From assembly GCF_000402035.1 (NCBI RefSeq), contig NC_021294.1, positions 1 to 64,000 of the forward strand: a stretch of 64,000 nucleotides of DNA, read 5' to 3'. Source of the DNA: Caballeronia insecticola (GTDB lineage Bacteria > Pseudomonadota > Gammaproteobacteria > Burkholderiales > Burkholderiaceae). Position 1 is the first letter of the stretch. The number at the start of each line of letters is the position of its first letter. Positions 6,558-57,303 of the stretch are shown piece after piece. The notes beneath the pieces are model-generated. The model ran no database searches. It saw only the letters and a list, made by a program, of their open reading frames with translations, and was not told where the DNA came from. A program made the translations under genes and the position numbers.

Positions 6558-7598
6558 TCAAAGGTGAGCGTTTTCGGGATCGCCGATCGGCCCATGCGGA
6601 TCGGCGATCCGCGTCGAGGCTGCGCGCGCCTGAGCGATATCGCGCTCCCGTATTTGCTCACCCATCCAGTCCTGCCACGCGCGATGCAGCCGATGCACCG
6701 AGATCGTCTGCTGAAAACCGAGCCACTGTCCGACTCGTTCGGGCTCCGTGCCATCCTCGAACAATTCGGCTGCGTAGGTGTTGCGCAGCGTCTGCGGACT
6801 TGCCCGCGCAACACGCGACACCGCGATACCGGACGCCGCCACGACCGCATCGATCGCGCGCAGCATGGTCGCCTTGTGCATCGGGCGACCGGACGGCGCA
6901 GCGGGGAACAGCAAATCGCCCGCTAGCGCCGCGGTCTTGCGCTCGCCGATCCAGCTGTCGATCAAGTCAACGGCAAACGGCGCAAGCCGCGCCTGCCGAA
7001 TCAGCAACGGATTCGAAGCATCAACGGTGACATAGGGCGCGCCGGCCGCGTAGCAATCGACGGTGAGTTGCGCCGCCTCGCCCGTCTTCACGCCGCCGCC
7101 CAGAAATGCGGCGACCAGCGCCCGATCGCGCCGCTCGCGCCAGCGTTGCCCGGCCGGCAACGCGCCGAGCGGCGAAAAGAGATGCGCGACCAACAGCGCG
7201 CGTTCATCGTGAGTGAGGAAGCCGGTGGGCTCGTTGTCGCGGGCCTTGCGCCACGCGGCATTGCCGTCCTGAGCGATAAAGCGCGCCGGGTTCGTCCCCG
7301 CGGATTCGATTTCCCGCACATGATCCAGCACGCGTTCGATGAGGCGCAGATACCGCATGCGCTGCGGCCGACGAATATCGAGTTGAGCAACGAATTGCTC
7401 GATGACCGGACGTTGCACCGTATGCAGCGTCGCGCGCTTCGCGTCGAGCCACTCCAGAAAATTGCCCCATTGCGCGCGATAGACATCCGCCGACGATGCT
7501 CTGAACGACTGCTGCGCGAGCCACGCGTCGAACGCGGCATGCGGATCGGCCTGCCAGTCGGCTCGCTGTTGGTCGAAGAGATCGGAAGTGTTCGGCAT
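6558..7598 (-). CDS. Tyrosine-recombinase-like protein, catalytic residues apparently lost
   Basis: 346 residues with an N-terminal SAM-like core-binding domain (about 22-110) and a C-terminal phage-integrase fold. Against the XerD pattern, box I reads GGGVKTGEAAQL, so the first catalytic Arg is Lys171. Box II reads QTLRNTYA: the first His becomes Gln269, Arg272 is kept and the next His becomes Asn273. The LGH motif reads LGF (F295), and the expected Tyr position falls in SVHRLHRAW, which has no tyrosine. It therefore looks like a DNA-binding pseudo-recombinase, perhaps structural or regulatory at the origin. The frame is intact with no sign of decay, so it is probably maintained. Its last codons overlap an iteron-like repeat. 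Confidence 0.7.
   Translation of the reverse strand: MPNTSDLFDQQRADWQADPHAAFDAWLAQQSFRASSADVYRAQWGNFLEWLDAKRATLHTVQRPVIEQFVAQLDIRRPQRMRYLRLIERVLDHVREIESAGTNPARFIAQDGNAAWRKARDNEPTGFLTHDERALLVAHLFSPLGALPAGQRWRERRDRALVAAFLGGGVKTGEAAQLTVDCYAAGAPYVTVDASNPLLIRQARLAPFAVDLIDSWIGERKTAALAGDLLFPAAPSGRPMHKATMLRAIDAVVAASGIAVSRVARASPQTLRNTYAAELFEDGTEPERVGQWLGFQQTISVHRLHRAWQDWMGEQIRERDIAQARAASTRIADPHGPIGDPENAHL
6560..6578 (-). repeat. Iteron-like repeat outside the origin (1)
   Basis: Minus-strand CCCGAAAACGCTCACCTTT differs from the origin consensus only in the variable GT dinucleotide. It lies 28 bp after kfrA and shares its final base with the recombinase stop codon (6558-6560). Confidence 0.7.
6647..6663 (+). 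repeat. Iteron-like repeat outside the origin (2)
   Basis: CCCGTATTTGCTCACCC keeps both conserved ends, but the middle is divergent. It lies inside the coding end of the recombinase gene, facing the copy at 6560. It is weaker than that copy. Confidence 0.4.
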
Positions 7599-7781
7599 GG
7601 TGTCGGTGAGCGCGCTTTACGCTGTATTGCACTGCGCACAGGGTCGGGCTTCGAGCGCCTCGCGTCAAGCGCAGGCGTTCACCGAAGTGTCGATAACTGT
7701 CTTGCGATGAGTGTGGTTCGTCGTCTACTGTCGTCTACACGGCTTCCTTCGACGCACAACTAAAAGAGCACGGAGTGAACG

Positions 7782-9206
7782 ATGGCCCAAGAGACCTGGC
7801 AGCAACGCCGCGCGAACGGGCGCGTGGCGCGCGAGCGCACGCCGCGGGGAGCCAACGAGACCATTGGCGATGTCGACCGCGATCCGGTTGAACTCCTGCG
7901 TGCGAGCAGCAAAGGCCGTGTTGATGCGTTGATTCCGCTGCGCTACGGCCGCATGCTCGTTTCGCCGTTCACCTTTTATCGCGGCAGTGCAATCATTCAG
8001 GCGCATGACCTGGCGGCCACCCCCAACAGCGGTATCTCGATTCAGATTTGCGGCGACTGTCATCTGTCCAACTTCGGCGGCTTTGCAACGCCGGAGCGCG
8101 CGCTCATCTTCGATCTCAACGATTTCGACGAAACTGCGCCCGGTCCGTGGGAGTGGGATCTGAAGCGACTCGTCGCGAGCTTCACGATCGCCGGGCGCCA
8201 TCTCGGCCATGGCGACCTTACCGCCGACGAGTTCGCCTTCCTCGTCACGCGCAGCTATCAATCGCATATGCGCGAGTATGCGGAGATGAGCGTGCTCGAC
8301 CTCTGGTATGAGCGCATCACGTTCGAACGCATGATGGGCGCAGTCCAGACGGACGACTCGCGGCGGCGCATCAAGCGCGGCATCGAGCGTGCGTCGCGGC
8401 GCACTCACGAAACGATGCTGCCGAAGCTGGCGGAGCAGACCGGCGACGCGTGGCGCATCCGCGATGCCCCGCCCGCCGTGTTCCATATTCGCGGCAAGAG
8501 CACGCTGATCGACAAGGACGACGCCTGGATGACGCTCGAAGGCAGCCGCGAAGAGATCATCGCGGCGCTCATGCGCGATTATGTCGCGACGCTGACGCCG
8601 GAACGCGCACGGTTGCTATCGCAATTTACGCTACAGGACGTCGCGTTCAAGGTGGTCGGCGTGGGAAGCGTCGGGACCCGCTGCCTGGTTCTGCTATTTA
8701 CGGATCATCACGATAAGCCTTTGTTTTTACAGATGAAGGAGGCTTCGGCCTCGGTCGTCGCGCGATACGCGAAGCGATCCGACGATGCGAATCCGTCCGA
8801 GCACGATGGACACCGCGTAGTCCACGGCCAACGTCTGATGCAGGCGGCGACGGACCCGTTTCTCGGCTGGGCGACCGGCCCGTTCGGTCGTGCGCTGTAT
8901 ATCCGCCAGTTACGCGACATGAAAATATCCGCCGAACTCGAGGCTCTCGACTCGGACGCGTTTCGGGATTACGCGGCAATCTGCGGCTGGGCACTGGCTC
9001 GCGCGCATGCGAAGTCGGGCGGCTGCGCAATCGAGATCTCGGGATATCTCGGCAACAGCGAACGCATGGCCGAAGTGCTCGTCGGCTATGGGCGCGCTTA
9101 TGCGGATCAGGTGGAAAAAGACTACGAGTTGTTTCGCGGCGCGTGCCGGGACGGCCGACTCAAGGCGCGCAGCGACGCTGATATCGCGGCAGACTTCGCA
9201 CCTTGA
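7782..9206 (+). CDS. DUF2252 family protein
   Basis: 474 residues covering the full DUF2252 domain: RYGRMLVSPFTFYRGSA, then CGDCHLSNFGGFATPERALIFDLNDFDET, then WEWDLKRLVASF, and late on KMKEASASVV-like and GWALARAHAKSG segments. The HLSNFG and DxNDFD signatures recall the catalytic and metal-binding loops of kinase-like aminoglycoside phosphotransferase folds, but the family has no firmly assigned reaction. It is predicted cytosolic, with no signal or membrane segment. The ATG at 7782 follows a GGAG at good distance. It stands alone between the recombinase and a small convergent gene. Confidence 0.85.
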   Translation: MAQETWQQRRANGRVARERTPRGANETIGDVDRDPVELLRASSKGRVDALIPLRYGRMLVSPFTFYRGSAIIQAHDLAATPNSGISIQICGDCHLSNFGGFATPERALIFDLNDFDETAPGPWEWDLKRLVASFTIAGRHLGHGDLTADEFAFLVTRSYQSHMREYAEMSVLDLWYERITFERMMGAVQTDDSRRRIKRGIERASRRTHETMLPKLAEQTGDAWRIRDAPPAVFHIRGKSTLIDKDDAWMTLEGSREEIIAALMRDYVATLTPERARLLSQFTLQDVAFKVVGVGSVGTRCLVLLFTDHHDKPLFLQMKEASASVVARYAKRSDDANPSEHDGHRVVHGQRLMQAATDPFLGWATGPFGRALYIRQLRDMKISAELEALDSDAFRDYAAICGWALARAHAKSGGCAIEISGYLGNSERMAEVLVGYGRAYADQVEKDYELFRGACRDGRLKARSDADIAADFAP

Positions 9207-9257
9207 CGCTGTTTGATGAAGCTCGATGACGATTGAAGGAAGGTGAAACGACGCTAA

Positions 9258-9280
9258 GCACGCGGTTCCAGGCCGCGTGC
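9258..9280. terminator. Inverted repeat between convergent genes
   Basis: GCACGCGG-TTCCAGG-CCGCGTGC forms a strong 8-bp stem between DUF2252 and the small convergent gene. There is no long T-run on either side, so it may be a bidirectional or weak terminator. Confidence 0.45.
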
Positions 9281-9296
9281 CTAGTGTGAGGCTGTG

Positions 9297-9653
9297 TCAG
9301 TGCGCGGCGATGGCGAGTCGCGGCTGGCCGTGTCGTGCGGCTTGTTCGTAGGCATCCACGGCGAAGGCGAAAACGGCGGGCAAGGCGTCGGAAGATGCGA
9401 TATCGACGACGTCGTCGGTTTCGGGGAAATGAAAATCATCGGGACGCGCGAACAGTTCTCGCAGCGCAGCTTCATGCCGCCCGGCAAAGCCCAGGTCTGC
9501 GACCGCCTCTGATTCGATCGCATGCAAAAGGCGCCAGGTCAGGGGCACGCCTTTGTCGATATAACGCCCCGCAATCTGGCGCGTGATGCGCTCGAGATCG
9601 CGCACCGCACGGGCAAACTGCTTCCTGCTCAGATTCTCGCCGTTCGACTCCAT
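9297..9653 (-). CDS. Small SOS-controlled protein of unknown function
   Basis: 118 residues, soluble and mostly helical, acidic in the middle and histidine- and alanine-rich at the end. I recognise no family. The gene looks real: it starts at ATG 9653 behind AAGGGGTGG and has a consensus LexA box 28 bp upstream. That box overlaps a good promoter read on the minus strand (TTGCAA, 17 bp, TACAGT). The product should therefore be induced by DNA damage. Possible roles are damage repair, growth arrest or a toxin, and none can be chosen from sequence. It is followed by the inverted repeat at 9258. Confidence 0.7.
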   Translation of the reverse strand: MESNGENLSRKQFARAVRDLERITRQIAGRYIDKGVPLTWRLLHAIESEAVADLGFAGRHEAALRELFARPDDFHFPETDDVVDIASSDALPAVFAFAVDAYEQAARHGQPRLAIAAH

Positions 9654-9681
9654 GATCCACCCCTTCCAACAGGTCTTATTG

Positions 9682-9701
9682 TACTGTACAAATATACAGT
9701 A
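9682..9701. promoter_or_regulatory. LexA (SOS) box
   Basis: TACTGTACAAATATACAGTA contains CTGT-N8-ACAG, the LexA consensus shared by gamma- and beta-proteobacteria, with extended TA flanks. It covers the spacer and -10 of the promoter for the minus-strand gene at 9297-9653. Confidence 0.85.
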
Positions 9702-9919
9702 CTTGTTGCAATGAAAATAGCGTCGCGCTACTCGACCCGGGTGTATGTGCGATTCCGCCTACGTGCGTTTCAGACATTCACGGCTATGCGTGCTCGCCAA
9801 CGAAGCGCATCGTGGAGTCATGCTTGGGAATGGTCCTGGGCGGAGTGCGCAGGCGCTTGAGATCGTCAGTTCAGGCGTACTGCGTGGCTAATCAAGCTGC
9901 AAAGCACGGGAGAACCGAG

Positions 9920-10108
9920 ATGAACAAGGATCAAGTTGAAGGCGTCGGCAAGCAGGTTAAGGGCAAGATCAACGAAGGTGTCGGCAAGATGACCGGCGAC
10001 AAGGTTCAGGAAGCCAAGGGCGACATGCAGCAGGCCGCAGGCAAGGTGCAGAAGGGCGTGGGTGACGCGCGCGAAGACGTGAAGGATGCGGTCAAGAAGA
10101 ATCCGTAA
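9920..10108 (+). CDS. CsbD-family stress protein
   Basis: 62 residues. Start at ATG 9920 behind GGAGAACC gives a typical CsbD protein: KDQVEGVGKQVKGKINEGVGKMTGDK, then repeated KGD-QQAAGKVQKGVGD segments ending in KKNP. It is lysine-, glycine- and glutamate-rich and probably intrinsically flexible. Family members are induced by general stress (sigma-B in Bacillus), but their molecular function is not known. Longer upstream readings lack the family pattern. A strong terminator follows at 10161, so the gene is a single unit. Confidence 0.9.
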   Translation: MNKDQVEGVGKQVKGKINEGVGKMTGDKVQEAKGDMQQAAGKVQKGVGDAREDVKDAVKKNP

Positions 10109-10160
10109 GCAGACTTCACGCGATTTGCATTGATGCCGCTTTGAGCAGTGTCATGCAGGA

Positions 10161-10195
10161 CGGGGCGCACTTGCCGTGCGCCCCGTTTTTGTTTG
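10161..10195 (+). terminator. Rho-independent terminator after csbD
   Basis: CGGGGCGCAC-TTGCC-GTGCGCCCCG gives a perfect 10-bp stem followed by TTTTTGTTT. Confidence 0.92.
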
Positions 10196-10219
10196 ACCGC
10201 AGGCCGGAATTTATCCGAC

Positions 10220-10235
10220 GTTTATGCGCATAAAG
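10220..10235. repeat. parS: Distal parS site 5
   Basis: GTTTATGCGCATAAAG has the full core with one end base changed. It lies about 9 kb from parAB, between csbD and the XRE regulator. Confidence 0.85.
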
Positions 10236-10267
10236 TCGGCCGATCCAGCGCGAGGCGCACTGCGCCA

Positions 10268-10870
10268 TCAGCCATGAATCACGATGAGCAACGCCTTGGC
10301 CTCAGAGCGTCCGACATTGCGGATGGCGTGTGCCTCGTCCGCCGCGTAGCGGGCCGTTTCCCCGGGTTTGAGCCGACGCGTCGCGCCCGATGCATCGATC
10401 TCAATCGAGCCGTTCAGCACCGTCAGATGTTCGCGCGTTCCCGGTTCGTGAGCCTTCGATGTCAGCGATGCGCCCGACTGCAGCGTGAGTTCGTACCACT
10501 CGAATTTGCCTGCGAGTTCTATCGGCCCCCAAACGCGCAATTGATATCCGCCGTTATCGCCGGTCAAGGTGGGGATGTCATGCGGTCCGGCCACGCGGAT
10601 CGCTTCGACGGGCCTTTGCTGTGCGAATAGTTGATCGAGACTGATGCCGAGCGCGTTGGTCAATCTCCAGGCGACTGCAATAGTCGGGTTCGCCTTGTCG
10701 CGTTCAATTTCCGACAACATCGATTTCGATACCCCCGCGGCGCGTGACAAATCGTCAAGCGTCAGCTTCCGTTCGTTGCGCAAGCGCTGAATGACCTCGC
10801 CGACGCGCGGCGGCGTCGCCCCGGTTCCGGCGAAGTCGCCTGTCTTTCCTTCTGAACCCACGCTTGCCAT
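10268..10870 (-). CDS. XRE-family regulator with cupin domain
   Basis: 200 residues. The N-terminal helix-turn-helix (about 23-75: VIQRLRNERKLTLDDLSRAAGVSKSMLSEIERDKANPT) is followed by a flexible link and a C-terminal cupin barrel (about 115-198: HEPGTREHLTVLNGSIEID, LKPGETARYAADEAHAIRN). This is the layout of small-molecule-sensing repressors such as PuuR and SutR. It is divergent from kbl-tdh, so it most likely controls threonine degradation and senses a ligand in the cupin pocket. Direct TTCGRWATAT repeats lie in the shared intergenic region. Confidence 0.88.
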   Translation of the reverse strand: MASVGSEGKTGDFAGTGATPPRVGEVIQRLRNERKLTLDDLSRAAGVSKSMLSEIERDKANPTIAVAWRLTNALGISLDQLFAQQRPVEAIRVAGPHDIPTLTGDNGGYQLRVWGPIELAGKFEWYELTLQSGASLTSKAHEPGTREHLTVLNGSIEIDASGATRRLKPGETARYAADEAHAIRNVGRSEAKALLIVIHG

Positions 10871-10893
10871 GAATCCCGCGATCCCTTAGAGTG

Positions 10894-10927
10894 TTCGGTA
10901 TATTGGAAATCGGTTCGAAATATCGAA
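10894..10927. promoter_or_regulatory. Candidate operator for the XRE-cupin regulator
   Basis: TTCGGTATAT (10894) and TTCGAAATAT (10914) are direct repeats 20 bp apart, and the second sits within the inverted repeat TTCGA-AATA-TCGAA (10914-10927). They lie just upstream of the XRE start and in the kbl promoter region. The regulator assignment is inferred from position. Confidence 0.45.
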
Positions 10928-11049
10928 TCTGTCCGATACGATGGATGCACTATAACAGGGCTAAGAGCCTGCGTGCGCGTGCCCGATCGAAATCGGCGTC
11001 TGCAAAAGCGGTGTCTGATTTCCGGCAGCAGCCCAAACAAAGGATTGCG

Positions 11050-12252
11050 ATGAACGACCGATATCTCTCCCATCTGCGCTCGACACTCGACGAGATCCGC
11101 GCGGCGGGCTTCTACAAGCATGAACGTGTGATCGCCAGCCCGCAGTCGTCGGATATCCGGCTTGCGGACGGAAGCGATGTGCTGAACTTCTGCGCCAACA
11201 ATTACCTCGGTCTCGCAGACGATTCCCGCCTGATCGACGCGGCGAAGGCCGGCCTCGACGCCGACGGGTTCGGCATGGCCTCGGTGCGCTTTATTTGCGG
11301 GACGCAAACCGTACACAAGGAGCTTGAGCGGGCCGTCTCGCAATTCCTCGGAACCGACGACGCCATTCTTTACTCCAGTTGCTTCGACGCGAATGGCGGT
11401 CTTTTCGAGACGTTGCTGACCGAAGAAGACGCAATCATTAGCGACGAATTGAATCACGCCAGCATCATCGACGGCGTGCGACTCTCGAAAGCCAAACGTC
11501 TTCGGTACAAGAACAACGACCTCGCCGATCTCGAAGCACGCCTGCAGGAAGCCGACGCCGCTGGCGCGCGCTTCAAGCTCATCGCAACCGATGGCGTGTT
11601 CTCGATGGACGGCATCATCGCCGATCTTGCCGGCATCTGCGATCTCGCCGACCGCTACGGCGCACTCGTGATGGTCGACGATTCGCACGCGGTAGGTTTC
11701 ATCGGCGAAAACGGGCGGGGAACGCCGGAGCATTGCGGCGTGGGCGATCGTGTGGACATCATCACCGGAACGCTCGGAAAGGCGCTCGGCGGTGCATCGG
11801 GTGGCTATGTCGCGGCGCACAAGGAAATCATCGAATTATTGCGTCAGCGCAGCCGGCCGTATCTTTTTTCGAACTCGCTGGCGCCGAGCATCGCGGCCGC
11901 GTCGTTGAAAGTGCTTGAGCTGCTCGCGAGCGACGAAGGTGCCGCGCTGCGCAAGCGCGTCCGGGAAAACGGCGCACGTTTCCGTAAGGCGATGACTTCA
12001 CTCGGATTCGAACTCGTTCCCGGCGAGCATCCGATCATTCCCGTGATGCTCGGCGATGCGCAACTCGCATCGAAGATGGCGGATGCGCTCCTCGGCGAAG
12101 GCGTGTACGTGATCGGCTTTTCCTTTCCCGTTGTGCCGAAGGGACGTGCCCGCATCCGCACGCAGATGAGCGCGGCGCACACGCCGGAACAGATCGATCA
12201 GGCGATCGATGCGTTCGCACGCGTCGGCCGATCCCTCGGGGTGATCCGCTGA
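11050..12252 (+). CDS. kbl: 2-amino-3-ketobutyrate CoA ligase (glycine C-acetyltransferase)
   Basis: PLP enzyme of the alpha-oxoamine synthase family. It splits 2-amino-3-ketobutyrate with CoA into glycine and acetyl-CoA, the second step of threonine degradation. The PLP lysine is in [15 protein letters not shown], with upstream signatures [39 protein letters not shown] and [21 protein letters not shown]. From ATG 11050 the protein has 400 residues, matching E. coli Kbl; upstream in-frame starts would add an unmatched basic leader. tdh follows after 81 bp that hold a parS site. Confidence 0.95.
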
Positions 12253-12267
12253 GCGAGCCCCGCTCGG

Positions 12268-12283
12268 CTTTATGCGCATAAAG
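12268..12283. repeat. parS: Distal parS site 6, between kbl and tdh
   Basis: Perfect CTTTATGCGCATAAAG in the kbl-tdh gap, about 11 kb from parAB. ParB bound here would sit inside the kbl-tdh transcription unit. Confidence 0.88.
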
Positions 12284-12333
12284 CCACCGCAACCCCGCGC
12301 CCACCCAACAAAGAACACCGAGATCAAACGCCA

Positions 12334-13365: not shown

Positions 13366-13377
13366 GCCGACAACGCA

Positions 13378-14010: not shown

Positions 14011-14164
14011 CGCGCAATGCCTCGGATAGAAAAAACAAGAATTCGACCAGTTTCGCCGAGATCGCAAAAACGTGCGCGCGCCGTCACGTCCCTTTCGCTC
14101 ATCCACACGAAAATGGCGCGATCGGTTAGAGTTCGCCTCGGCCTCCATCTCAAAAAAAGGCGCC

Positions 14165-14719: not shown

Positions 14720-14723
14720 GTCA

Positions 14724-14741
14724 TCCTGAATAATCTCACCT
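14724..14741 (+). repeat. Iteron-like repeat outside the origin (3)
   Basis: TCCTGAATAATCTCACCT follows the barrel gene stop by 5 bp. It is the upstream member of a pair 45 bp apart and keeps the CTCACCT end exactly. Confidence 0.55.
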
Positions 14742-14768
14742 CACGCACGGCGTGAAGTCATAAGCCAT

Positions 14769-14786
14769 CCCGAATAATCTCACCTT
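14769..14786 (+). repeat. Iteron-like repeat outside the origin (4)
   Basis: CCCGAATAATCTCACCTT keeps both conserved ends. It overlaps the stop codon of the convergent MocR gene (14780-14782). Confidence 0.65.
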
Positions 14787-16162
14787 GCGCGACTCAACGC
14801 CTTCTCGAACTTCGGATCACCGAGATACGCGACGTTAAAACGAAACCACGGCGACACGTTGTTCGCGTGCGCGGAAAAAATCGTCCCTGGCGCGAGAATC
14901 ACGTGCTTGTCCAGCATCTCTTTCGCAAAGGCAATGGAATCGTCGCGACCGGGCAGCCGCGCCCAGAGATACAGACTCTGGTCACTCACCTTGAAGATGG
15001 TCGCGTCCAGACGCAGCAATGCTTCGACGCCTGTGGCCGTCGCGCGCTTGAGCCGCTCCTGCAGACGATTCGTGTGCCGCAGAAAATGGCCATCGCTGAC
15101 GATTGCGTCGAGCGTGCGCTCGCAGTATTCGCTGCTGCTGACGTGCGTCAGCATCTTCACGTCGGCGAGATCGCTGGCGAGATTGGCGTCGCAGGCGAGG
15201 AAGCCCACGCGCAGCGCCGCCGACACCGACTTCGAAAAGCTGCCGATATAAATTGTGCGTCGCAGTTGATCCAATGCGCTGATGCGCGTGGCCGAACGCG
15301 GCTTGAGATCGGCGAGCGCATCGTTTTCGACGACGATCAGATCGTGTGCCTCGGCCAACTGCAAAATGCGATGCGCCTTCGCCGCGCTGATGTCCGTCGC
15401 GGTCGGATTGTGCCCGACCGATTGCGTGAAAAAGAGCCGCGGCCGGTGCGCTTTCAACCGCTCTTCGAGCGCGGCGATATCCGGTCCATCGACACCGCGC
15501 GGCACGCCGACGATATTCGCCCCTGACAGTTTCAGCTTGCCGAACAGCGCGTAATAGCCGGGATCGTCGACGAGCACGGTATCGCCCGCGCGCACGAAGT
15601 AACGCACGACCATGTCCATCGCCTGATTGGCGCCGTGCGTCAGGACGATCTGCTGCGGCGCTGCTTCGATTTCGTACCCGGCGAGTTTCTGCTGCAGATG
15701 CTGGCGCAACGGCAGATAGCCGAAGCGGCTGCCATACCGAAACAGCGACGCGACGCCGGTTCGCACCACACGCTGATGAAAGTGATCGAGCCGCGTTTCT
15801 TCGAGCCACGCGACGGGCGGAAAGCCCTCGCCGAGATTGAGAAAGTCCGGCTTGCTCTGCAACTGTTCGCGCATGAGCCAGACGGAATCCATCGCTCGAT
15901 CGAGCGTGGGCGCGTCTTCATCGTGCTGCTGCGGCTTCGCCACGCTCGCGACGTAAAAGCCCGCACCGCGCCGCGGTTCGATAAGACCGTTCGCCGTCAA
16001 CATATCGAACGCGCTGATGACCGTATTTTTCGAGCAGCCGTTCGCCTCAGCGTATTCCCTGATCGATGGGAGTTTGTCGCCGGTGCGCAGCACGCCTTCC
16101 GTGATCTGTCTGGCGAGATTGTTCGCGAGTGTCGCCGACAGGCTCGGCTTCTCGTCCCGCAT
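14780..16162 (-). CDS. MocR/PdxR-type regulator (GntR HTH fused to aminotransferase fold)
   Basis: 460 residues from ATG 16162 (AGGA ribosome site). The N-terminal GntR winged helix (1-75: LARQITEGVLRTGDKLPSIREYAEANGCSKNTVISAFDMLTANGLI) is fused to a fold-type I aminotransferase domain. The PLP lysine is in the IYIGSFSKSVSAALRVGFL segment, and HGANQAMDMVVRYFV and VENDALADL are typical. MocR proteins use PLP or an aldimine with an amino compound as effector. It is divergent from the mevalonate genes and close to repeated GGTACAGT sites, so control of that operon is the simplest reading. The effector is unknown, and a link from mevalonate to a PLP sensor is not obvious. Confidence 0.85.
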   Translation of the reverse strand: MRDEKPSLSATLANNLARQITEGVLRTGDKLPSIREYAEANGCSKNTVISAFDMLTANGLIEPRRGAGFYVASVAKPQQHDEDAPTLDRAMDSVWLMREQLQSKPDFLNLGEGFPPVAWLEETRLDHFHQRVVRTGVASLFRYGSRFGYLPLRQHLQQKLAGYEIEAAPQQIVLTHGANQAMDMVVRYFVRAGDTVLVDDPGYYALFGKLKLSGANIVGVPRGVDGPDIAALEERLKAHRPRLFFTQSVGHNPTATDISAAKAHRILQLAEAHDLIVVENDALADLKPRSATRISALDQLRRTIYIGSFSKSVSAALRVGFLACDANLASDLADVKMLTHVSSSEYCERTLDAIVSDGHFLRHTNRLQERLKRATATGVEALLRLDATIFKVSDQSLYLWARLPGRDDSIAFAKEMLDKHVILAPGTIFSAHANNVSPWFRFNVAYLGDPKFEKALSRAR

Positions 16163-16197
16163 CGTGTCGTCCTGTTCTAAAAGTGTCGAGCCGTATT

Positions 16198-16250
16198 GGG
16201 TACAGTGCCCGCACTGTTTGCCGAAATTGTACCTTTCATACGGGTACAGT
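16198..16250. promoter_or_regulatory. Candidate MocR operator for the mva operon
   Basis: Two direct GGGTACAGT repeats (16198-16206 and 16242-16250) flank an inverted half-site, ATTGTACC (16226-16233). The first overlaps the perfect palindrome ACAGTGC-CC-GCACTGT (16202-16217). Direct repeats tens of bases apart with an inverted element are the binding pattern known for MocR proteins such as GabR and PdxR. Assignment to this regulator is by position. Confidence 0.6.
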
Positions 16251-16357
16251 CCGCCTATTATTCGCCCATCCGGCGCATCGCTGCAAGCGCCGCTCGCAAA
16301 CAGTCGCAAGCAATCGCTGACACTCGAAATACACGTCCAGACAGTAGAGGAAGACAC

Positions 16358-17641
16358 ATGATCGATTCGAAGTTGCCGAATTTCCGCGCGATGTCGCCTG
16401 CGCAGCGCCTGAGCCACATCGCCCAGGCCGCCGGTCTCGACGACGCCGAGCACGCGCTGCTCGCAAGACCCGGCGCGCTGCCGCTCGACACCGCCAACGG
16501 CATGATCGAGAACGTCGTCGGCACGTTCGAATTGCCGATGGCGGTCGCCGGCTACTTCCAGATCAACGGCCGCGACGTGCTGGTGCCGATGGCCGTGGAA
16601 GAGCCGTCGATCGTCGCGGCGGCGTCCTATATGGCGAAGCTCGCGCGGGAGGCGGGCGGCTTCCGCACGTCGAGCACGGGCCCGCTGATGCGCGCGCAGG
16701 TGCAGGTGGTCGGCGTGTCGGACCCGTATGGCGCGCGGCTGGCGATCCTCAAGCATCGCGACGAGCTGATCGACATGGCCAACGCGCGCGACAAGGTGCT
16801 GATCGGTCTCGGCGGCGGTTGCCGCGACATCGAGGTGCACGTGTTTCCCGACACGCCGCGCGGCGCGATGATCGTCGCGCATCTGATCGTCGACGTGCGT
16901 GACGCGATGGGCGCGAACACCGTCAACACGATGGCCGAAACGGTCGCGGGCCGCATCGAGGAGATCACGGGCGGCAAGGTGCGGCTGCGCATCCTGTCGA
17001 ATCTCGCCGATCTGCGCCTCGCGCGCGCGCAAGTGCGCTACAGCGCGGCCACGCTGCAATCGAAGGAGTATTCGGGCGAGGATGTGATCGCGGGCGTCGT
17101 CGATGCGTACCTGTTCGCCGCGATCGATCCGTATCGCGCCGCGACGCACAACAAGGGCATCATGAACGGCATCGATCCGGTGATCGTCGCGACGGGCAAC
17201 GACTGGCGCGCAGTCGAAGCGGGCGCGCATGCCTACGCGAGCCGCGGCGGCCGCTATACGTCGCTGACGACGTGGGAAGTGGCGAACAACGGCGACCTCG
17301 TCGGCACGATCGAAATGCCGATGCCGGTCGGGCTCGTCGGCGGCGCGACCAAGACGCATCCGCTCGCGCGCCTCGCGCTGAAGATCATGAACGTGAAGTC
17401 GGCGCAGGAACTCGGCGAGATCGCGGTTGCGGTCGGACTCGCGCAGAACATGGGCGCGTTACGCGCGCTTTCGACCGAAGGCATTCAGCGCGGCCACATG
17501 GCGCTGCATGCGCGCAACATCGCGCTGGCGGCGGGCGCGAGCGGCGCGGACATCGACTGGGTCGTGAAGAAGATGGTCGCCGCGCGCAACGTGAGCGTCG
17601 ATTACGGCATGACGCTTCTGCAAGGGCCGCGCGATGAATGA
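16358..17641 (+). CDS. mvaA: HMG-CoA reductase, class II (degradative)
   Basis: 427 residues from ATG 16358 (AGAGGAAG ribosome site). Class II enzymes oxidise mevalonate with CoA and 2 NAD+ to HMG-CoA in bacteria growing on mevalonate. The sequence shows [18 protein letters not shown], the catalytic glutamate in [11 protein letters not shown], the NAD-binding loop [14 protein letters not shown], the catalytic lysine in [10 protein letters not shown], the aspartate in [12 protein letters not shown] and the histidine in [13 protein letters not shown]. Length and motifs match the Pseudomonas mevalonii enzyme. It overlaps mvaB by 8 bp. As this organism should make isoprenoids by the MEP route, a catabolic role is most likely. 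Confidence 0.93.
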
Positions 17642-18572: not shown

Positions 18573-18594
18573 AAACTCCATCAAAGGAGGAGAC

Positions 18595-20450: not shown

Positions 20451-20466
20451 TGCGACGCGGCGTCGC

Positions 20467-25890: not shown

Positions 25891-26811
25891 ATGTCCGATC
25901 AACTCACGCCGCCGTCCGGCATGTGGCCGGTTCTCTACGCGTACTTCGACGCGCTGAACCGGCTCGACAGCAACGCCACGCGCAGACAGATCGATGCGAC
26001 CATCGCGGCGGGCGCGCCTGCGATCGTCACGCTTGGTCTCGCGACGGAAGTGAACCGTCTGTCCGACGATGAAAAGCGCACCATGATCGACGATTGCGCC
26101 GCGCATATCGCGGGCCGCGTGCCGCTCGCGGTCACGATCACCGGCGACAGTGTCGACGCGCAGGTCGCGCTTGCGAATCACGCGCTCGAACGCGGCGCGT
26201 CGTGGCTCATTCTTCAGCCGCCGTCGAAACGCGGTGAGCCCGAGTCGTTCTACTACGACTTCTTTGCGTCAGTGCTCGAACGGACCGGCGCGAGCGCGGG
26301 CATTCAGAATGCGCCGGAGTATCTTGGCGTCGGCTTGTCGGCGGAATCGATTGTCGCGCTTGCCGCCGAGCGTCCGAACTTTCGTTTGCTCAAAGGCGAA
26401 GGACCGGCCGTGACGATACGCGCGACCATCGAACGCCTGCATGCGCTCGAACAGACGCTCGCGGTGTTCAACGGACGCGGCGGGCAGGAACTCGTCGACA
26501 ATCTGCGCGCGGGCTGCGACGGTCTGATCATCGCGCCGGATGCGTTCGATCATCAGGTCGCTATCTACGAGGCTTTTGCTGCAGGACGCGAGCATGAAGC
26601 CGAGTCGCTCTATGCGGAAGCGCTGCCGGAAATCGTCTTCGTGATGCAGTCCCTGGAAACGCTCACCTGTTACGGCAAGCGCATTGCGGCGTGGCGCATG
26701 GGATTCGATGTTGCGCACGATCGCGGCACGCGTCCGACGCCGTTCGGCATCGAATGCGCGCGACGCTTTGCGCAACGGCTCGGACCGACGTCGCGTCCTG
26801 TGCCGCGATGA
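25891..26811 (+). CDS. Dihydrodipicolinate synthase-family aldolase or dehydratase
   Basis: 306 residues from ATG 25891 (ACGGAGG). TIM-barrel class I lyase; the Schiff-base lysine is in FRLLKGEGPAV, and AGAPAIVTLGLATEVNRLSDDEK corresponds to the N-terminal substrate loop. It is not a lysine-synthesis DapA: beside a pentonate-type dehydratase gene it most likely acts on a 2-keto-3-deoxy sugar acid, as an aldolase or as a dehydratase leading to alpha-ketoglutarate semialdehyde. No semialdehyde dehydrogenase gene is adjacent. The convergent MarR-GNAT gene ends 1 bp away. Confidence 0.82.
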   Translation: MSDQLTPPSGMWPVLYAYFDALNRLDSNATRRQIDATIAAGAPAIVTLGLATEVNRLSDDEKRTMIDDCAAHIAGRVPLAVTITGDSVDAQVALANHALERGASWLILQPPSKRGEPESFYYDFFASVLERTGASAGIQNAPEYLGVGLSAESIVALAAERPNFRLLKGEGPAVTIRATIERLHALEQTLAVFNGRGGQELVDNLRAGCDGLIIAPDAFDHQVAIYEAFAAGREHEAESLYAEALPEIVFVMQSLETLTCYGKRIAAWRMGFDVAHDRGTRPTPFGIECARRFAQRLGPTSRPVPR

Positions 26812-27847: not shown

Positions 27848-27880
27848 TTTCGCAAGAAAAATGAAGTGCATGGGTCGGCT

Positions 27881-27898
27881 CCCGAAAATGCTCACCTT
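27881..27898 (+). repeat. Iteron-like repeat outside the origin (5)
   Basis: CCCGAAAATGCTCACCTT, whose first 17 bases are identical to the origin iteron at 4503. It touches the hpnL stop codon (27898-27900). Confidence 0.75.
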
Positions 27899-41896: not shown

Positions 41897-41897
41897 C

Positions 41898-42536: not shown

Positions 42537-42555
42537 AAGGGTGAGGGTTTTCGGG
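42537..42555 (-). repeat. Iteron-like repeat outside the origin (6)
   Basis: Minus-strand CCCGAAAACCCTCACCCTT. Both conserved ends are present. Confidence 0.65.
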
Positions 42556-42620
42556 AGCGTGGTTTCGAAAGGCGCCTGGAGGCCTTGTTTTCGGGCACTT
42601 GCGAGAGGGGCGGGCAGTGC

Positions 42621-42639
42621 AAAGGTGAGGGTTTTCGGG
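42621..42639 (-). repeat. Iteron-like repeat outside the origin (7)
   Basis: Minus-strand CCCGAAAACCCTCACCTTT differs from the origin consensus only at the variable dinucleotide. It starts 84 bp from copy 6, on the same strand. Confidence 0.7.
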
Positions 42640-42773
42640 AGCCGGCTCGGAGTCACGAATCGAGCCCTCACTTTCCCCTAATTTCCCGTCCCTACACTGC
42701 TCGTCAAGGTCGCAACACAACGAAGTCGAGCGGCCGCGACCGAACCATCGACAAAAGGGAAAGGGGAAACGAC

Positions 42774-45322: not shown

Positions 45323-45347
45323 AGCGCGCGTTCAAGGAGACGACATC

Positions 45348-48121: not shown

Positions 48122-48312
48122 GATGGGTCCTTGATCGAGGGGTGCATCCGATGGAGATGCGCGGTTCCTTGCGCAGTTGTCAAAGATAGCACCGCATGCG
48201 CGGGTGCATCGGTCGCACGAACTGGCCTGCCGGCGCACGCGCGAAGCGTTCATGGGCGCGCACGTTTCGCATCGACGACAATATAAAAAATCGAAACGGA
48301 GACGCCATCGAC

Positions 48313-48951: not shown

Positions 48952-48953
48952 CC

Positions 48954-49469: not shown

Positions 49470-49558
49470 CGGATTTGCCGCGCCGTGTGCGGTTCGGCTT
49501 TGCTTCCGGACGATCGGGGTCTAGTCTCAAGCCTGGACACTGAACGATTTCCGGACCG

Positions 49559-50851: not shown

Positions 50852-50884
50852 CGTAACCGCATCGCGCTTCCCAAGCTCGAAAAC

Positions 50885-52360: not shown

Positions 52361-52525
52361 GGTGCGTGAGCCGTCAAGGGTTCAGAAAGCCGAAAGCGCG
52401 GCGACCGGTCGCGGTCGTTCGAGACAGCTATGTTGCATGTTTTGCCGGCTTTTTGCACGGTGGCCGCGCTAACGGACGTTCGATTCGAGCGGCCGAATAC
52501 GAAATATTTGCGGCGTCAGGCGTGT

Positions 52526-53434
52526 TTAGTCCGACCAGCTCAACGAAGGATCGGCGCGCAGCGTCGCGACGGCGAGATCGAGAAACGCGCGCACCTTTTG
52601 CGTGACGTGACGTCCCTCGCGATGCACGAGCTGGATCGGAACAGGCGGCGCCTCGAATTCGGGCAACACGATGACGAGACTGCCGTCGCTTACGTATTGC
52701 GCAACCTGATACGAGAGCAGCCGGGCGATGCCGAAATCCGCGAGTGCGGCGCCGATGGCGGAATCGTTGGTCGTGGTCGTCAGACGTGGATGCGCGCGCA
52801 CGAGGATCTGTCGCTCGCCGTCGTGCAGACGCCATTCGGCGGGCGTCGACGAACCGGTGGAGGCGATCACCACATGCTCCGCGAGATCGTCCGGATGCCG
52901 CGGCGTGCCGTGCTTGGCAAGATATGCGGGCGATGCGCACAACACGCGCCGCACGCGGCCGACGCTGATTGCCTGCAACGACGAGTCCGGCAATTGCGCG
53001 ATGCGCACGGCCACGTCGATCCCTTCGTCGACGAGATTCACGACGCGGTCGACGAACCAGCAGTTCGCATCGGCTTCGGGATAGCGGCGCAGATAGTCGA
53101 GCACGACCGGCGTGACATGCAGCCGGCCGAACATGACCGGCGCGGTGATCGAGAGCACGCCGCGCGGCGACGAGTGCGTGCCCGTCGCGGAAAGCTCGGC
53201 GATGTCGATTTCGCCGAGAATGCGGCGGCAGTCCTCGAAGTAGCCGGTGCCGGCGTCGGTGAGACGCACGACGCGCGTCGTGCGCGTGAGCAGACGCACG
53301 CCGAGATGCTCTTCGAGTTCGGTCACGACGCGGCTCACGACCGACGGCGAGATATCGAGCTTGCGCGCCGCCGATGCGAAGCCGCCGGTCTCGACCACCG
53401 TGACGAAGGTCGCCATTGCCTGGAAACGGTCCAT
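52526..53434 (-). CDS. LysR-family regulator
   Basis: 302 residues. Winged helix GGFASAARKLDISPSVVSRVVTELEEHLGVRLLTRTTRVVRLTDAGTGYFEDC, then an effector domain of the CrgA/DsdC-like group. It lies 90 bp after the flavoprotein fusion on the same strand, and might regulate it or be unrelated. Divergent targets are absent. Confidence 0.88.
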   Translation of the reverse strand: MDRFQAMATFVTVVETGGFASAARKLDISPSVVSRVVTELEEHLGVRLLTRTTRVVRLTDAGTGYFEDCRRILGEIDIAELSATGTHSSPRGVLSITAPVMFGRLHVTPVVLDYLRRYPEADANCWFVDRVVNLVDEGIDVAVRIAQLPDSSLQAISVGRVRRVLCASPAYLAKHGTPRHPDDLAEHVVIASTGSSTPAEWRLHDGERQILVRAHPRLTTTTNDSAIGAALADFGIARLLSYQVAQYVSDGSLVIVLPEFEAPPVPIQLVHREGRHVTQKVRAFLDLAVATLRADPSLSWSD

Positions 53435-53524
53435 GAGAATGCGCGGGGCCTGCGGGCTTGAGGGATGCCGTGCATTCTCGGGGATATGGGCGCGGGGGGC
53501 AATGCACCGTCGCCGCGATTCGCG

Positions 53525-55612
53525 TTACAAGTCGAGTTCGAGCCCACCCCCTTCATCCCCCGCCGGCACCGCGCAGCAGATCAGCGCTTCGTCATCGCCG
53601 ACATGAAACGCCGGCTCGCTCTCATACGACACCGCGCCTTTCACGATGCGCGTCCGGCACGTCCCGCACGTGCCGCCGCGGCAGTTGAATTCCGGCGCAA
53701 GGCCGCTCGCTTCCGCGAGTTCCAGCAACGTGCCGCTGTCCGGCTTCCACTGCGCATCGGTGCCCGACTTCACGAAGCTCACCTTCACCGGCTCGGCGGC
53801 GGCGGGACGCATCGGCTTCACGTCCGCGCCGCGATCCGCCGTGCGCTTCAGCGACGACGGACCGAACGCCTCCGCATGAATGCGCGTGTCCGACACGTTG
53901 AGCTTGCGCAAGCCGTCGTAGATCGACTGCATGAACGCGCCCGGCCCGCACAGATAAAAATCGTAGTCGTTGAACGGTAGCCGGCTCGTCAGCAGATCGA
54001 GGTCGATGCGCCCCGACATGTCGTAGTCGCGCGCAAGCTCCGCGCCCTGCGTGTCGCTCAGCACGCGGATCACATGCACCGCGCCGCCCGCGGCCTGCGC
54101 GAGATCGTCGATTTCGCGGGCGAACGCGCGGCTCGCAAGCGCATGCGCCGACACGATCATCCACACCGGACGTACGCGCCGCTTGCGCAGCCCTTCATAA
54201 ACGACGTGCCGCAGCATCGCGAGCATCGGCGTGATGCCGACGCCCGCCGCCATCAACACGGCGGGACGCGGTTCCAGCGCATCGATCGTGAAATCGCCCG
54301 CGGGTGCGCGTGCTTCGAGCGTGCCGCCGGTCTTCAGCGTGTCGTGCAGATACGCCGACACACGTCCGTCGCGCTTCACGCTGATGCGATACACGCCATC
54401 GGACGGCGCCACCGACAGCGTGTACGTGCGGATCTGCGGCCTCGCTTCGCCCGGCAGCGTGACGCGAATCGGCAAGTGCTGTCCGGCCTTGTGCGGTATG
54501 AGCCCGGCATCGTCCGCCGGGATCAGATGAAACGAGCGGATCGAGTCGCTCTCATCGACGATCTTGCTCACGCGGAACGTGCGCCACGCATTGGCAAGCG
54601 TCGTCGCCCTGATGCGCTCGGCCACTTGCCGCCAGTCGCCGGTCATCAGCGAATTCGGCGATGCGCCGTCGCGACGCGCTGCCCAGCGCAGCGGCAGCGC
54701 CTGCTCGCGATACACGATGCGGCGCGGCGTAAAGCGCCACAGCCGTTCGGCGCCCTGAAACGCGGCGATTTCCGGCGAATCGAGCAACACTTCGGCGTTG
54801 CCGGACATCTGCAGCAGCGTGCCCGTTTCGAAGTCGGCGAACACGAGTCCCGCGCGGCCGTTCTCCAGAATATTGCCGAGCGTGTTGAAGAACAGATTGC
54901 CCGCGAAATCCGGAATCGTGAGCACGCCGTCGTCCGACAGACGCACGAAACCCGGCTTGCCGCCGCGATGCGACACATCCACTTGCCGATGCCCGTCCTC
55001 GCGATCGAAATACGACGCGACGAACAGCGTATCCGCACCCGTAATCATCTCGCGCGCGCGCGGCGTGAGCGCGTCGAGCAGGACCGGCTGCACCGGCGAC
55101 GGCACCGCCGGATCGCGCACGAATTCGAAATCGCGCAACTGGATGTACTGCGGGCAATTGCCGAAGCTCTGCTCGACGGCCATGTCGAACCGGGCGTTCG
55201 CGCCGTCGCGATGAATCACGCCGTTCACGCGGTTACGGCGGCGCGTGTGCAATTCGATGCCGAGCAGGCCGATGGACGCGCCATCGTTCATGCCGGCGTC
55301 GGCGGGATCGAGCGGATCGCGCGCGCGGTCGATGGCGAGCGTCGTCGTGTTCGTCGTCTGCATGAAGCCCGGATGCCCGGCGAGGAGCGTCGCCCACGGA
55401 TCGCCGCGCTCATCCACGGCGCCAGCGACGATGAACGGCAGTTGCGCGAAGAACTGGCGATGCTGCTCGGGCATGTAATTGCGCACGACGCGGCGGCCTG
55501 CGCTATCCATGCGCTCGTAGGCGCCGGCGGCTTTCTGCAGCTTGATTTCGCCGCGATGCCACGGCGAGGGCGTCGCGACGGGCGCGACAGGGGGAACCGC
55601 GAGAGTGGACAT
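53525..55612 (-). CDS. Pyridoxamine-phosphate-oxidase domain fused to ferredoxin reductase and 2Fe-2S ferredoxin
   Basis: 695 residues from ATG 55612 (GGAGG). Residues 30-320 are a PNPOx-like FMN-binding barrel (LPFIVAGAVDERGDPWATLLAGHPGF and QVDVSHRGGKPGFV). Residues 350-590 are a ferredoxin-NADP reductase module with the FAD motif RTYTLSVAPSD and the NAD loop MAAGVGITPMLAMLRH. Residues 610-695 are a plant-type ferredoxin with cluster cysteines in CRGGTCGTCRTRI plus a late CC pair. It should carry electrons from NAD(P)H via flavin to the iron-sulfur cluster and the FMN barrel, possibly reducing an oxidant or detoxifying a small molecule. It is probably cotranscribed with the GST gene upstream. 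Confidence 0.88.
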   Translation of the reverse strand: MSTLAVPPVAPVATPSPWHRGEIKLQKAAGAYERMDSAGRRVVRNYMPEQHRQFFAQLPFIVAGAVDERGDPWATLLAGHPGFMQTTNTTTLAIDRARDPLDPADAGMNDGASIGLLGIELHTRRRNRVNGVIHRDGANARFDMAVEQSFGNCPQYIQLRDFEFVRDPAVPSPVQPVLLDALTPRAREMITGADTLFVASYFDREDGHRQVDVSHRGGKPGFVRLSDDGVLTIPDFAGNLFFNTLGNILENGRAGLVFADFETGTLLQMSGNAEVLLDSPEIAAFQGAERLWRFTPRRIVYREQALPLRWAARRDGASPNSLMTGDWRQVAERIRATTLANAWRTFRVSKIVDESDSIRSFHLIPADDAGLIPHKAGQHLPIRVTLPGEARPQIRTYTLSVAPSDGVYRISVKRDGRVSAYLHDTLKTGGTLEARAPAGDFTIDALEPRPAVLMAAGVGITPMLAMLRHVVYEGLRKRRVRPVWMIVSAHALASRAFAREIDDLAQAAGGAVHVIRVLSDTQGAELARDYDMSGRIDLDLLTSRLPFNDYDFYLCGPGAFMQSIYDGLRKLNVSDTRIHAEAFGPSSLKRTADRGADVKPMRPAAAEPVKVSFVKSGTDAQWKPDSGTLLELAEASGLAPEFNCRGGTCGTCRTRIVKGAVSYESEPAFHVGDDEALICCAVPAGDEGGGLELDL

Positions 55613-55676
55613 GATCGTATGCCTCCACACGCCGGGCGTGACGGCCGCGCGAGTGCGCCGCCGCCGCCGCGTCACT

Positions 55677-56297
55677 TTACGCCGCGAGACCCACGGCTGT
55701 CTTCTGGAACGGCACGAAGCCGGGGAGCGACTCGACGCGACGCAGCCATGCGTTCACGTTCGCGTACACGGACACATCGACGTTGCCTTCCGGCGCGCTG
55801 GAGATGTAGCTGTAGAGCGCGATATCGGCGATGGTCGGATGCGCGCTGTCGATGTCCGCGATCCAGTCGCGTGCCGCCAGTTGCGCGTCGATCAACGCGA
55901 GAATCGTGTGCGCGCGGGCGATGACTTCCGCTGCATCGAATCTGGCGCCGAACACGGTGATGAGACGCGCGGCTGCCGGGCCGAATGCGATCTGTCCCGC
56001 CGCCACCGACAGCCAGCGCTGTACCGCCGCGGCGTCTGCGGGCGTGTTGGGCAGCCATTTCGTATCGCCGGATTTGGCGGCGAGATAAACGAGGATCGCG
56101 TTCGAATCGGAGATGATGTGCTCGCCATCGACCAGGACGGGAACCTGCCCGAATGCGTTCAGCTTCAGATAATCGGGCGACTTGTGCTCGGCTTTGGCGA
56201 GATCGACGACAACTTCCTCGTGATCGATGCCAAGCAGGTTCAGGAAAAGACGCGCGCGGTGTGAATGCCCGGACAGCGGATATTGATAGAGCTTCAT
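55677..56297 (-). CDS. Glutathione S-transferase
   Basis: 206 residues from ATG 56297. N-terminal thioredoxin-like domain [24 protein letters not shown] with the glutathione-binding [25 protein letters not shown], and a C-terminal helical domain with [23 protein letters not shown] (the N-capping box). The active-site residue is probably Ser in the SGHS segment. It lies 64 bp upstream of the flavoprotein fusion, and a joint role in handling electrophiles or peroxides is plausible. Confidence 0.92.
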
Positions 56298-56468
56298 TTG
56301 CCAGAACCCTCGGTTTGATTGATGGCCGGGAGCCGCCCCTGCCTGTGAATCAAGTATCGGTTCTTGCAAAATGAAGCGGAATACCAGAGAAAATCAAATC
56401 ACTGTTCGCGAAACGAGAATGATGAGCGCGGTCCGGCTGCGTGTTACTTCGTCCGGTGGTCCGCGCGC

Positions 56469-56771
56469 TCAGTTCGGCGTAGGCACGTTCGCCTTGTTGC
56501 CCGCGAGCGGCGAGCCGTAGCCGCCGCTGTTCGCGTTGTTCGGCAGGCCGTTGACGAGCTGAGCACGCGGATCGCTCGGATTGAGATTCAACTCGCCGGC
56601 CTGTGCGTTGCCGTGCGTCGGGTACTGACTGCCGAGCGGCGCGTTCGGCATGAGGCGCGTGTCGTTTTGCGGCGCGTACATATCGGTTTCGACGCTCGGA
56701 TGCAGTTGCGCAAACGCGGACGTCGCGACGCAAGCCGCGGCCAGGACGAGTACGGTGCGGATCACTTTCAT
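56469..56771 (-). CDS. Small exported protein, function unknown
   Basis: 100 residues from ATG 56771 (GAGGAG). Signal peptide MKVIRTVLVLAAACVATSAFA, then a Pro/Asn/Gly-rich mature part of 79 residues (APQNDTRLMPNAPLGSQYP and NNANSGGYGSPLAG), likely disordered. No cysteines in the mature part and no family recognised. Confidence 0.7.
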   Translation of the reverse strand: MKVIRTVLVLAAACVATSAFAQLHPSVETDMYAPQNDTRLMPNAPLGSQYPTHGNAQAGELNLNPSDPRAQLVNGLPNNANSGGYGSPLAGNKANVPTPN

Positions 56772-56930
56772 GTCTGACTCCTCGATGAGCCGGTCGCGCC
56801 TTATTGGAAGATTCGCGAAGCTTCGGAAAGATTCGCAGACGTGGCCGCAAGCGCCCAGTCTATTCCGCACGCCCCGCGCAAGCGTCGATCACCCTACCGT
56901 CGACCAGTCCAGCGTTTGTTCCCGGCTCGC

Positions 56931-57113
56931 CTACTTCTTGTGTTTCTTGAGCTTGGCTTTGCGCTTCGGTATTTCATCGATGATCCGCGCGCGATGCTTG
57001 TCCTTCATCTTCTTCCACTGCTTGCATTCGTCCTTCGTGCGCAGGCAGCCGATGCACAGGCCGGTCTTCTCGTCGAACTTGCAGATGCTGATGCAGGGTG
57101 AATCGACTCCCAT
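56931..57113 (-). CDS. DUF1289-family protein
   Basis: 60 residues from ATG 57113 (GGAAGA); starts at 57146 or 57137 would add a short leader. Typical DUF1289: MGVDSPCISICKFDEKTGLC, IGCLRTKDE, then C-KQWKKMKDKHRARI. The five cysteines probably bind a metal. The C-terminal tail KRKAKLKKHKK is very basic. Function unknown, although family members sit near many metabolic genes. Confidence 0.85.
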   Translation of the reverse strand: MGVDSPCISICKFDEKTGLCIGCLRTKDECKQWKKMKDKHRARIIDEIPKRKAKLKKHKK

Positions 57114-57242
57114 GATGTCTTCCGTGATGGCGTGCATGGCACGCATGAGGCGGGACGGTCAATGTCGCATGCGCTATGCCCGCACATCCAACTGATTGTT
57201 CCGATCACGGCGATAGACGGGCGTTCGCGCGCCGCGCCGCTC

Positions 57243-57259
57243 CCGTATTGGCTCACCAT
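57243..57259 (+). repeat. Iteron-like repeat outside the origin (8)
   Basis: CCCGTATTGGCTCACCA keeps both conserved ends but the middle is divergent. It is paired with the copy at 57287. Confidence 0.5.
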
Positions 57260-57286
57260 TGAAGCGGTTGCAGCGAAATTCGGCTC

Positions 57287-57303
57287 CCGAATAAACTCAC
57301 CTC
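57287..57303 (+). repeat. Iteron-like repeat outside the origin (9)
   Basis: CCCGAATAAACTCACCT keeps both conserved ends. It lies about 140 bp upstream of the AI-2E transporter start. Confidence 0.6.

Follow-up and report, generated by a model that had tools for sequence, protein, structure and literature searches.

How chromosomes derived from plasmids become tied to the cell cycle is a question that the locus described here raises in a concrete form: copies of the repeats that make up its replication origin also lie tens of kilobases away from it. The window analyzed, positions 1 to 64,000 of contig C4 of Caballeronia insecticola (NC_021294.1), belongs to a chromid of 1,465,356 bp in a genome of 6.96 Mb and five contigs, and contains the Rep_3 initiator gene repA beside an origin of 17 repeats (iterons). 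A first-pass annotation of the window had listed nine further iteron copies outside the origin. The view that these and related copies are dispersed RepA-type iterons under selection is strongly supported by the evidence below, and about a dozen conserved short sites make the question testable outside Vibrio.

Iteron copies are dispersed along the chromid

The origin (3733..4976) consists of 17 iterons, all on the + strand, of which 12 carry the exact core CCCG-N6-CTCACC and five a core with one mismatch. This core was found 21 times in the window, compared with 0.09 expected from dinucleotide shuffles, and the annotation was right to regard so high a frequency as unlikely by chance. Genome-wide there were 39 core matches versus 8 for a reversed-pattern control: 12 in the origin, 12 dispersed on C4 between 6.5 and 77.1 kb, and 15 elsewhere (eight on C1, one on C2, three on C3, one on C5 and two more on C4). 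The search left the second variable base free; this base was an A in all 12 origin and all 12 dispersed matches and in none of the other 15. Exact matches to CYCGWAWNNNCTCACC numbered 21 in the genome, all of them on C4 between 3.7 and 77.1 kb (nine in the origin and 12 dispersed over seven stations). Since this exact WAW pattern had no match on C1, C2, C3 or C5, the motif is not equally common on chromosome 1, an outcome the annotation had named as counting against its idea. When one mismatch was allowed, CYCGWAWNNNCTCACC gave 60 matches in all, 25 of them on C1, C2, C3 or C5, against 23 for the reversed control. Between 8 and 120 kb of C4 there were 10 exact matches, with 0.002-0.003 per strand expected under a second-order Markov model.

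The stations, located by a matrix scan, are designated A to F and H. Station A consists of a site at 6561..6579 on the - strand, opposite in orientation to the origin iterons, and a second at 6646..6664 (+); station B comprises a CCTG variant at 14724..14742 (+) and a site between convergent gene ends at 14768..14786 (+). Station C is a single site at 27880..27898 (+), station D a pair on the - strand (42538..42556 and 42622..42640) and station E a pair on the + strand (57241..57259 and 57285..57303). Past the window lie the three + strand sites of station F (C4 66655, 66802 and 67048) and station H (C4 77098, -), which is inside hpnD. Eight of the nine copies listed previously have the exact core, at 6563 (-), 6647 (+), 14769 (+), 27881 (+), 42540 (-), 42624 (-), 57242 (+) and 57286 (+), while the ninth (14724/14725) reads CCTG and so has one mismatch. 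The reported identity between the 27881 copy and the origin iteron at 4503 was reproduced, the common sequence being TCCCGAAAATGCTCACCT, and the dispersal along the replicon was confirmed and reaches beyond the window, with four more cores at C4:66656 (+), 66803 (+), 67049 (+) and 77100 (-). The description of the copies as lying mostly outside genes also holds, with exceptions: A overlaps the 3' end of an integrase open reading frame (ORF), H lies within hpnD, and some sites touch gene ends or called starts.

The array is ordered and conserved in Caballeronia

All 57 Caballeronia genomes searched carried motif matches (3-28 each; reversed controls mostly 0 or 1). With the same matrix, stations A, C, D, E, F and H were all present, in the same order and on the same strands, in six of seven other Caballeronia chromids, with one or two sites at C, one or two at E and three or four at F. 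Station B was found in four of these six, as a single site in three and as a +/- pair in M1242. The seventh chromid, SBC2, lacks C and D along with the DNA between B and E.

Conservation was concentrated in the sites. At C, D and F the ten core bases were 0.99-1.00 identical to the C. insecticola sequence in five aligned Caballeronia genomes (G007 and M1242 omitted), while identity over the remainder of the gap was 0.65, 0.44 and 0.50, respectively (five genomes each). The six middle bases varied about as much as the spacer at C and F and were conserved at D (0.94). Station E left a weaker footprint (core 0.91 versus gap 0.54); station B aligned poorly (0.52 versus 0.42) and was treated as uninformative rather than as footprint evidence, and H is coding. 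Stations also persist beside altered neighbors: the 2 kb to the right of B had no blastn match in any of the six other chromids, yet B is present in four, and the right flank was without a match in three of six at C and in two of six at D, both stations being present in all six.

The gaps between stations are mostly more even than chance. The coefficient of variation (CV) of the gaps was 0.24 in C. insecticola, 0.30 in G002, 0.37 in G004, 0.13 in G007 and 0.18 in M1242; redrawing the stations of these five chromids among real intergenic gaps gave median CVs of 0.79-0.87 (P <5e-5 to 0.018), a test that did not extend to G008, G010 and SBC2. Under uniform placement P ranged from 0.0001 to 0.19 over eight chromids, the value of 0.19 being that of SBC2. 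These P values ignore shared ancestry, and the chromids are not independent. Within station D the two sites were 83-84 bp apart in five of seven chromids and 26-27 bp apart in G007 and M1242.

Single low-scoring matches elsewhere were not included among the stations. One such iteron-like match (26651-26669, score 17.5), about 1.2 kb ahead of station C, recurs in four of the six other chromids (G002, G004, G008 and G010; scores 12.4-17.5). Two CCTG-type candidates on the left arm, C4:1429719 and C4:1356802, were not relied on; the flank of the former matches SBC2, which has a weaker site (17.9) at about the corresponding place and another match (20.7) at 11.2 kb, and the left 100 kb of M1242 contained no match scoring at least 15.

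Station H constrains codon use in hpnD

Station H spans the hpnD codons TCG GTG AGR ATN TTC GGG, two of which are rare among the genes called here (of all Arg codons 2.4% are AGA or AGG, and 9% of Gly codons are GGG). In a sample of 50 loci (30 supplied by the search tool and 20 chosen in addition, drawn from 106 matching genomes out of 120 searched), the iteron core was present in 32 of 34 hpnD genes from iteron-bearing genera (g1, 12/12; g19, 9/9; g24, 5/6; g12, 3/3; g10, 2/2; Mycetohabitans, 1/2), in none of 14 from other genera and in neither of two from small Vallotia-like plasmids. Of the 32 site-bearing genes, 31 encode the Arg by AGA or AGG; the remaining gene, from g19, has AGC, an Arg-to-Ser change, with the core retained. 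The Arg is retained in seven outgroup genes, in each case as a CGN codon, and GGG is used by two outgroup genes (L258 and L265). When 72 conserved degenerate columns were ranked in the 32 site-bearing genes (a set excluding L247 and L272, which have no site, the outgroups and Vallotia), the three most unusual were all at station H. The constraint within hpnD acts at the DNA level, and in station H a protein-coding gene plainly contains what is probably a replication-control site.

Distribution and rearrangement in other genera

At least one motif match was found in 133 of 200 Burkholderiaceae genomes, with counts of at least 10 per genome only in groups g1, g7, g10, g12, g19 and g24 and a maximum of 7 in g15; g10 has the layout of the Burkholderia cenocepacia record and is on that ground assigned to Burkholderia. 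Among 80 named RepA loci, the best of 220, two were too short to judge, and station A was present in all 78 others (77 within the set interval and one at its edge); its leading site was in every case opposite in orientation to the origin iterons. The annotated Mycetohabitans rhizoxinica replicon is 76% coding overall, and eight of its nine matches within 14 kb were wholly intergenic, the other sharing 3 bases with a gene start; a weak match (14.6) is included among the nine. Sites were fewer and more scattered in G130 and G138.

Several stations could be followed through rearrangements. Station B adjoins the same gene, on the opposite strand, in G101, G074 and M. rhizoxinica. In G101 (C2), G074 (C10) and G065 (C2), the block of genes found at 69-81 kb in C. 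insecticola (to 91 kb in G101) is inverted and on the other side of parAB, to its left, and H has moved along with it. The counterpart of F in G065, which is Burkholderia-like, is a run of about 11 tandem iterons with a period of about 23 bp, some 157 kb left of the origin and near an ortholog of the gene flanking station F; nine of the iterons score at least 16 (L118:6709-6958). A second tandem-like cluster, of five CCTGGAA-type iteron variants, was seen about 18 kb right of the origin in G074 (C10:276322-276488; L113).

Vallotia symbionts carry a RepA 77-80% identical to that of C. insecticola on plasmids of 61-72 kb. Origin iterons were present in the complete plasmids of V. cooleyia and V. 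tarda and in the 50,000 of 61,393 bases covered in V. lariciata; at a score of at least 13 the only matches outside these origins were two weak ones in V. tarda (14.1 and 15.9), neither with a full core, and lowering the threshold to 11 added three weaker matches in V. cooleyia. Because these plasmids keep origin iterons without convincing dispersed ones, the origin of a small replicon, at least, can probably function without the dispersed sites. A Methylovorus plasmid encoding a RepA relative of 44% identity has eight TCCG-N6-CTCACC iterons at its origin and one inverted copy at the 3' end of rep (L277:3454-3908 and 5461).

Iterons of the c2 type were also observed on another replicon of 835-905 kb, probably Burkholderia c3, at G065:C3:754511 and 772961 and at G230:C1:700733 and 788919 (L137-L140), and the flanks of one such pair match between G065 and G230; the c2 RepA might reach another replicon. 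A crtS-like lead, CCCGTAAAAGCTCACC, which recurs on contigs lacking an origin, was rejected, as it appears within conserved coding sequence in G001, G004, G007 and G010, four Caballeronia contigs whose flanks match one another.

A probable negative control array

The dispersed sites are nearly identical to the origin iterons, are confined to origin-proximal DNA, conserve their core bases and occur at stations shared across genera. On balance we favor the view that they are RepA binding sites and that selection maintains them, next to the origin, as an array for negative control; occupancy by RepA is inferred from the near identity with the origin iterons and the co-occurrence with this RepA. 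Titration or handcuffing is the best-supported reading of the role of the array from the sequences compared, and by analogy with what has been proposed for RctB in Vibrio cholerae, the RepA sites most likely act in this way after initiation. Replication forks leaving the origin would double the sites within the first tens of kilobases, 72 kb being one to a few minutes of fork travel, and free RepA would fall as the doubled sites titrate it; RepA bound at the stations could also pair with origin iterons (handcuffing). Together these effects would block re-initiation and help tie a plasmid-derived replicon to one start per cycle. The array suggests a little-studied control by which replication of a chromosome derived from a plasmid stays coordinated with the cell, and if this is true, two separate chromid lineages would have reached the same solution.

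Several observations weigh against this reading. In other genera E, F and H accompany their genes to other distances: F lies at about 62 kb in Caballeronia, at about -157 kb in G065 and probably at +264 kb in G101, and H is 176 kb away in Mycetohabitans G142. Since station distances differ between genera, the exact distance is not fixed. A related Variovorax megaplasmid of 1.3 Mb has four CCCA-N6-CTCACA iterons at its origin and, over the 100 kb examined, only two extra sites, one 150 bp further along and the other at a distance of 2.9 kb, so that neither is more than 3 kb from the origin sites; a large replicon does not, therefore, always depend on such an array, and the array was rejected as a general feature of large Rep_3 megaplasmids. 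Plain titration, moreover, predicts neither even spacing nor strand polarity. Over 23 chromids or long contigs, counting exact dispersed sites within 120 kb (including G128:1611, possibly an origin iteron), 123 of 136 sites outside Caballeronia faced the origin (g10, 52/53; g12, 12/12; g7, 4/4; g19, 23/27; g24, 32/40), and Caballeronia breaks this polarity with 19 of 63. Strand composition was rejected as the cause, because base composition predicts only a 1.4- to 3.0-fold bias (six right arms).

Because regular spacing and polarity are left unexplained by titration and handcuffing, we also raise the rather doubtful idea of a replication-progress device, in which a fork would read even, mostly origin-facing RepA stations in sequence and RepA availability or origin folding would report the distance traveled. 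In B. cenocepacia, segregation of c2 is as well phased as that of c1, implying regulation untypical of plasmids (Du et al. 2016, PMC4948915); a progress device, if real, would be such a regulation, under selection strong enough to hold rare codons in hpnD. The same regularity could reflect DNA organization, a doubtful explanation by which RepA would bridge stations and origin, folding or holding the origin-proximal region and perhaps delaying sister separation. The regular gaps (CV 0.13-0.37 in five chromids, P <5e-5 to 0.018), the D spacing held at 83-84 bp in five of seven chromids and the polarity relative to the origin outside Caballeronia would all fit it; however, loops of 10 kb should need no particular site orientation, station number and spacing vary strongly among genera, and D is spaced at 26-27 bp in G007 and M1242.

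It is unlikely that KfrA or another DNA-binding factor reads the dispersed copies instead of RepA: a KfrA is encoded between the origin and station A, and the middle bases are narrower in the dispersed copies (WAW in 12/12, versus 9/12 origin iterons), but the core and the preferred A are those of the origin iterons, the genera with this RepA are those with high motif counts, and the Methylovorus RepA relative has TCCG-N6-CTCACC iterons. The suggestion of the annotation that the sites might link transcription to replication is disfavored, and we consider it quite unlikely that they are operators through which RepA couples nearby genes to replication. Although E and part of F lie upstream of genes and C lies in a short gap upstream of a regulator gene, A and B are at convergent gene ends, H is in mid-coding sequence, B, C and D keep their sites although the DNA beside them is exchanged from one species to another, and the flanking genes have no visible common theme. 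That the sites are functionless relics of past origin duplications or chance survivors is very unlikely; the tandem cluster at F in G065 could descend from an origin copy, but near-invariant core bases stand next to diverged spacers, rare codons are retained in hpnD, once despite an Arg-to-Ser change, and station B stays while its orientation differs between genera.

Relation to known systems

In plasmids P1 (incA) and F (incC), extra initiator sites outside the minimal origin lower initiation via titration and handcuffing; incA and incC adjoin their origins, whereas the sites described here extend over some 72 kb of a 1.47-Mb replicon. To our knowledge, Rep_3 proteins have no counterpart of the DnaA-ATP hydrolysis brought about at datA. 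Bridging at F incC and binding by RctB are both covered in PMC11711613. E. coli datA and other DnaA boxes resemble the present array in that they, too, are initiator sites close to the origin and become doubled soon after initiation, but they involve a different initiator, and datA works through DnaA-ATP hydrolysis (PMC3937223).

Vibrio is treated as the model for iteron chromids (review PMC6090056). In V. cholerae, RctB sites spanning 74 kb at about 40 kb from ori2 lower the copy number of ori2 plasmids, presumably by titration; increasing RctB relieves the drop, with the exception of a single composite site (Baek and Chattoraj 2014, PMC3937223). As in that system, the copies here are of origin iterons, on the same chromid and within about 100 kb of the origin, and the spans are of similar scale (74 kb versus about 72 kb). 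The initiator here is a Rep_3 protein, and GATC, a feature of RctB iterons on which methylation-dependent binding relies, is absent from all the 16-letter cores (12 exact origin and 12 dispersed), although a GATC overlaps the left edge of the origin iteron at 4433. Unlike the V. cholerae sites, the stations here keep an order that is conserved between genera, and one of them lies within a gene. The Vibrio trigger crtS lies on chromosome 1, and here C1 carries no exact WAW iteron, but crtS is itself unlike iterons (PMC6090056), so that this absence says little about a trigger site there.

The annotation knew of no dispersed initiator sites in these bacteria, but a supplementary-table legend in Du et al. 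2016 (PMC4948915) mentions c2 iterons of B. cenocepacia outside the origin, including a second cluster 140 kb from it, with the same consensus, ctCCCGAAAAacCTCACCTtt, as here. The text passages of that paper neither map the dispersed copies nor assign them a function, and say nothing of their conservation, their orientation or a copy embedded in coding sequence. A literature search of titles and abstract openings, with most subscription papers beyond reach, found no description of such an array.

Genes and other sequences near the origin

With a Rep_3 initiator of WH1-WH2 type and direct iteron repeats adjoining its gene, the replicon fits the Rep_3 iteron class. The gene repA (2257..3612, -; Pfam Rep3_N and Rep3_C above cut-off) follows parA (446..1108, +; AAA_31/CbiA) and parB (1133..2194, +; ParB_N/HTH_ParB). 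RepA is 99% identical to that of the 'Burkholderia' peredens type strain and has, beyond the WH1 and WH2 domains, a C-terminal extension of about 190 residues; the predicted model resembles RepE and pi over residues 21-256 (Foldseek, VIA-align), the span of these matches, with the C-terminal helices outside it. Between the origin and station A lies a kfrA-like gene (5339..6532, +; KfrA_N), followed by a tyrosine recombinase gene whose 3' end bears station A (6558..7598, -; Phage_integrase). Pfam also supports a minus-strand gene at 14903-17641, where ORF calling differed. The exact DnaA box TTATCCACA did not occur in the window; no search for degenerate boxes was made.

A core match within repA itself (2453-2471), absent from the earlier list of copies, lacks the conserved A; a similar low-scoring site was present in five of six Caballeronia relatives scanned (13.3 versus 14.1), the sixth sequence not covering repA, and the match probably reflects coding constraint. 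Finally, six palindromes within two mismatches of GTTTATGCGCATAAAC, a parS motif, were found in the window (166, 241, 329, 1109, 10220 and 12268; 0.03 expected). They mostly read CTTTATGCGCATAAAG; four surround parAB and two lie about 8-10 kb past parB, and partition sites may also be spread along the chromid.

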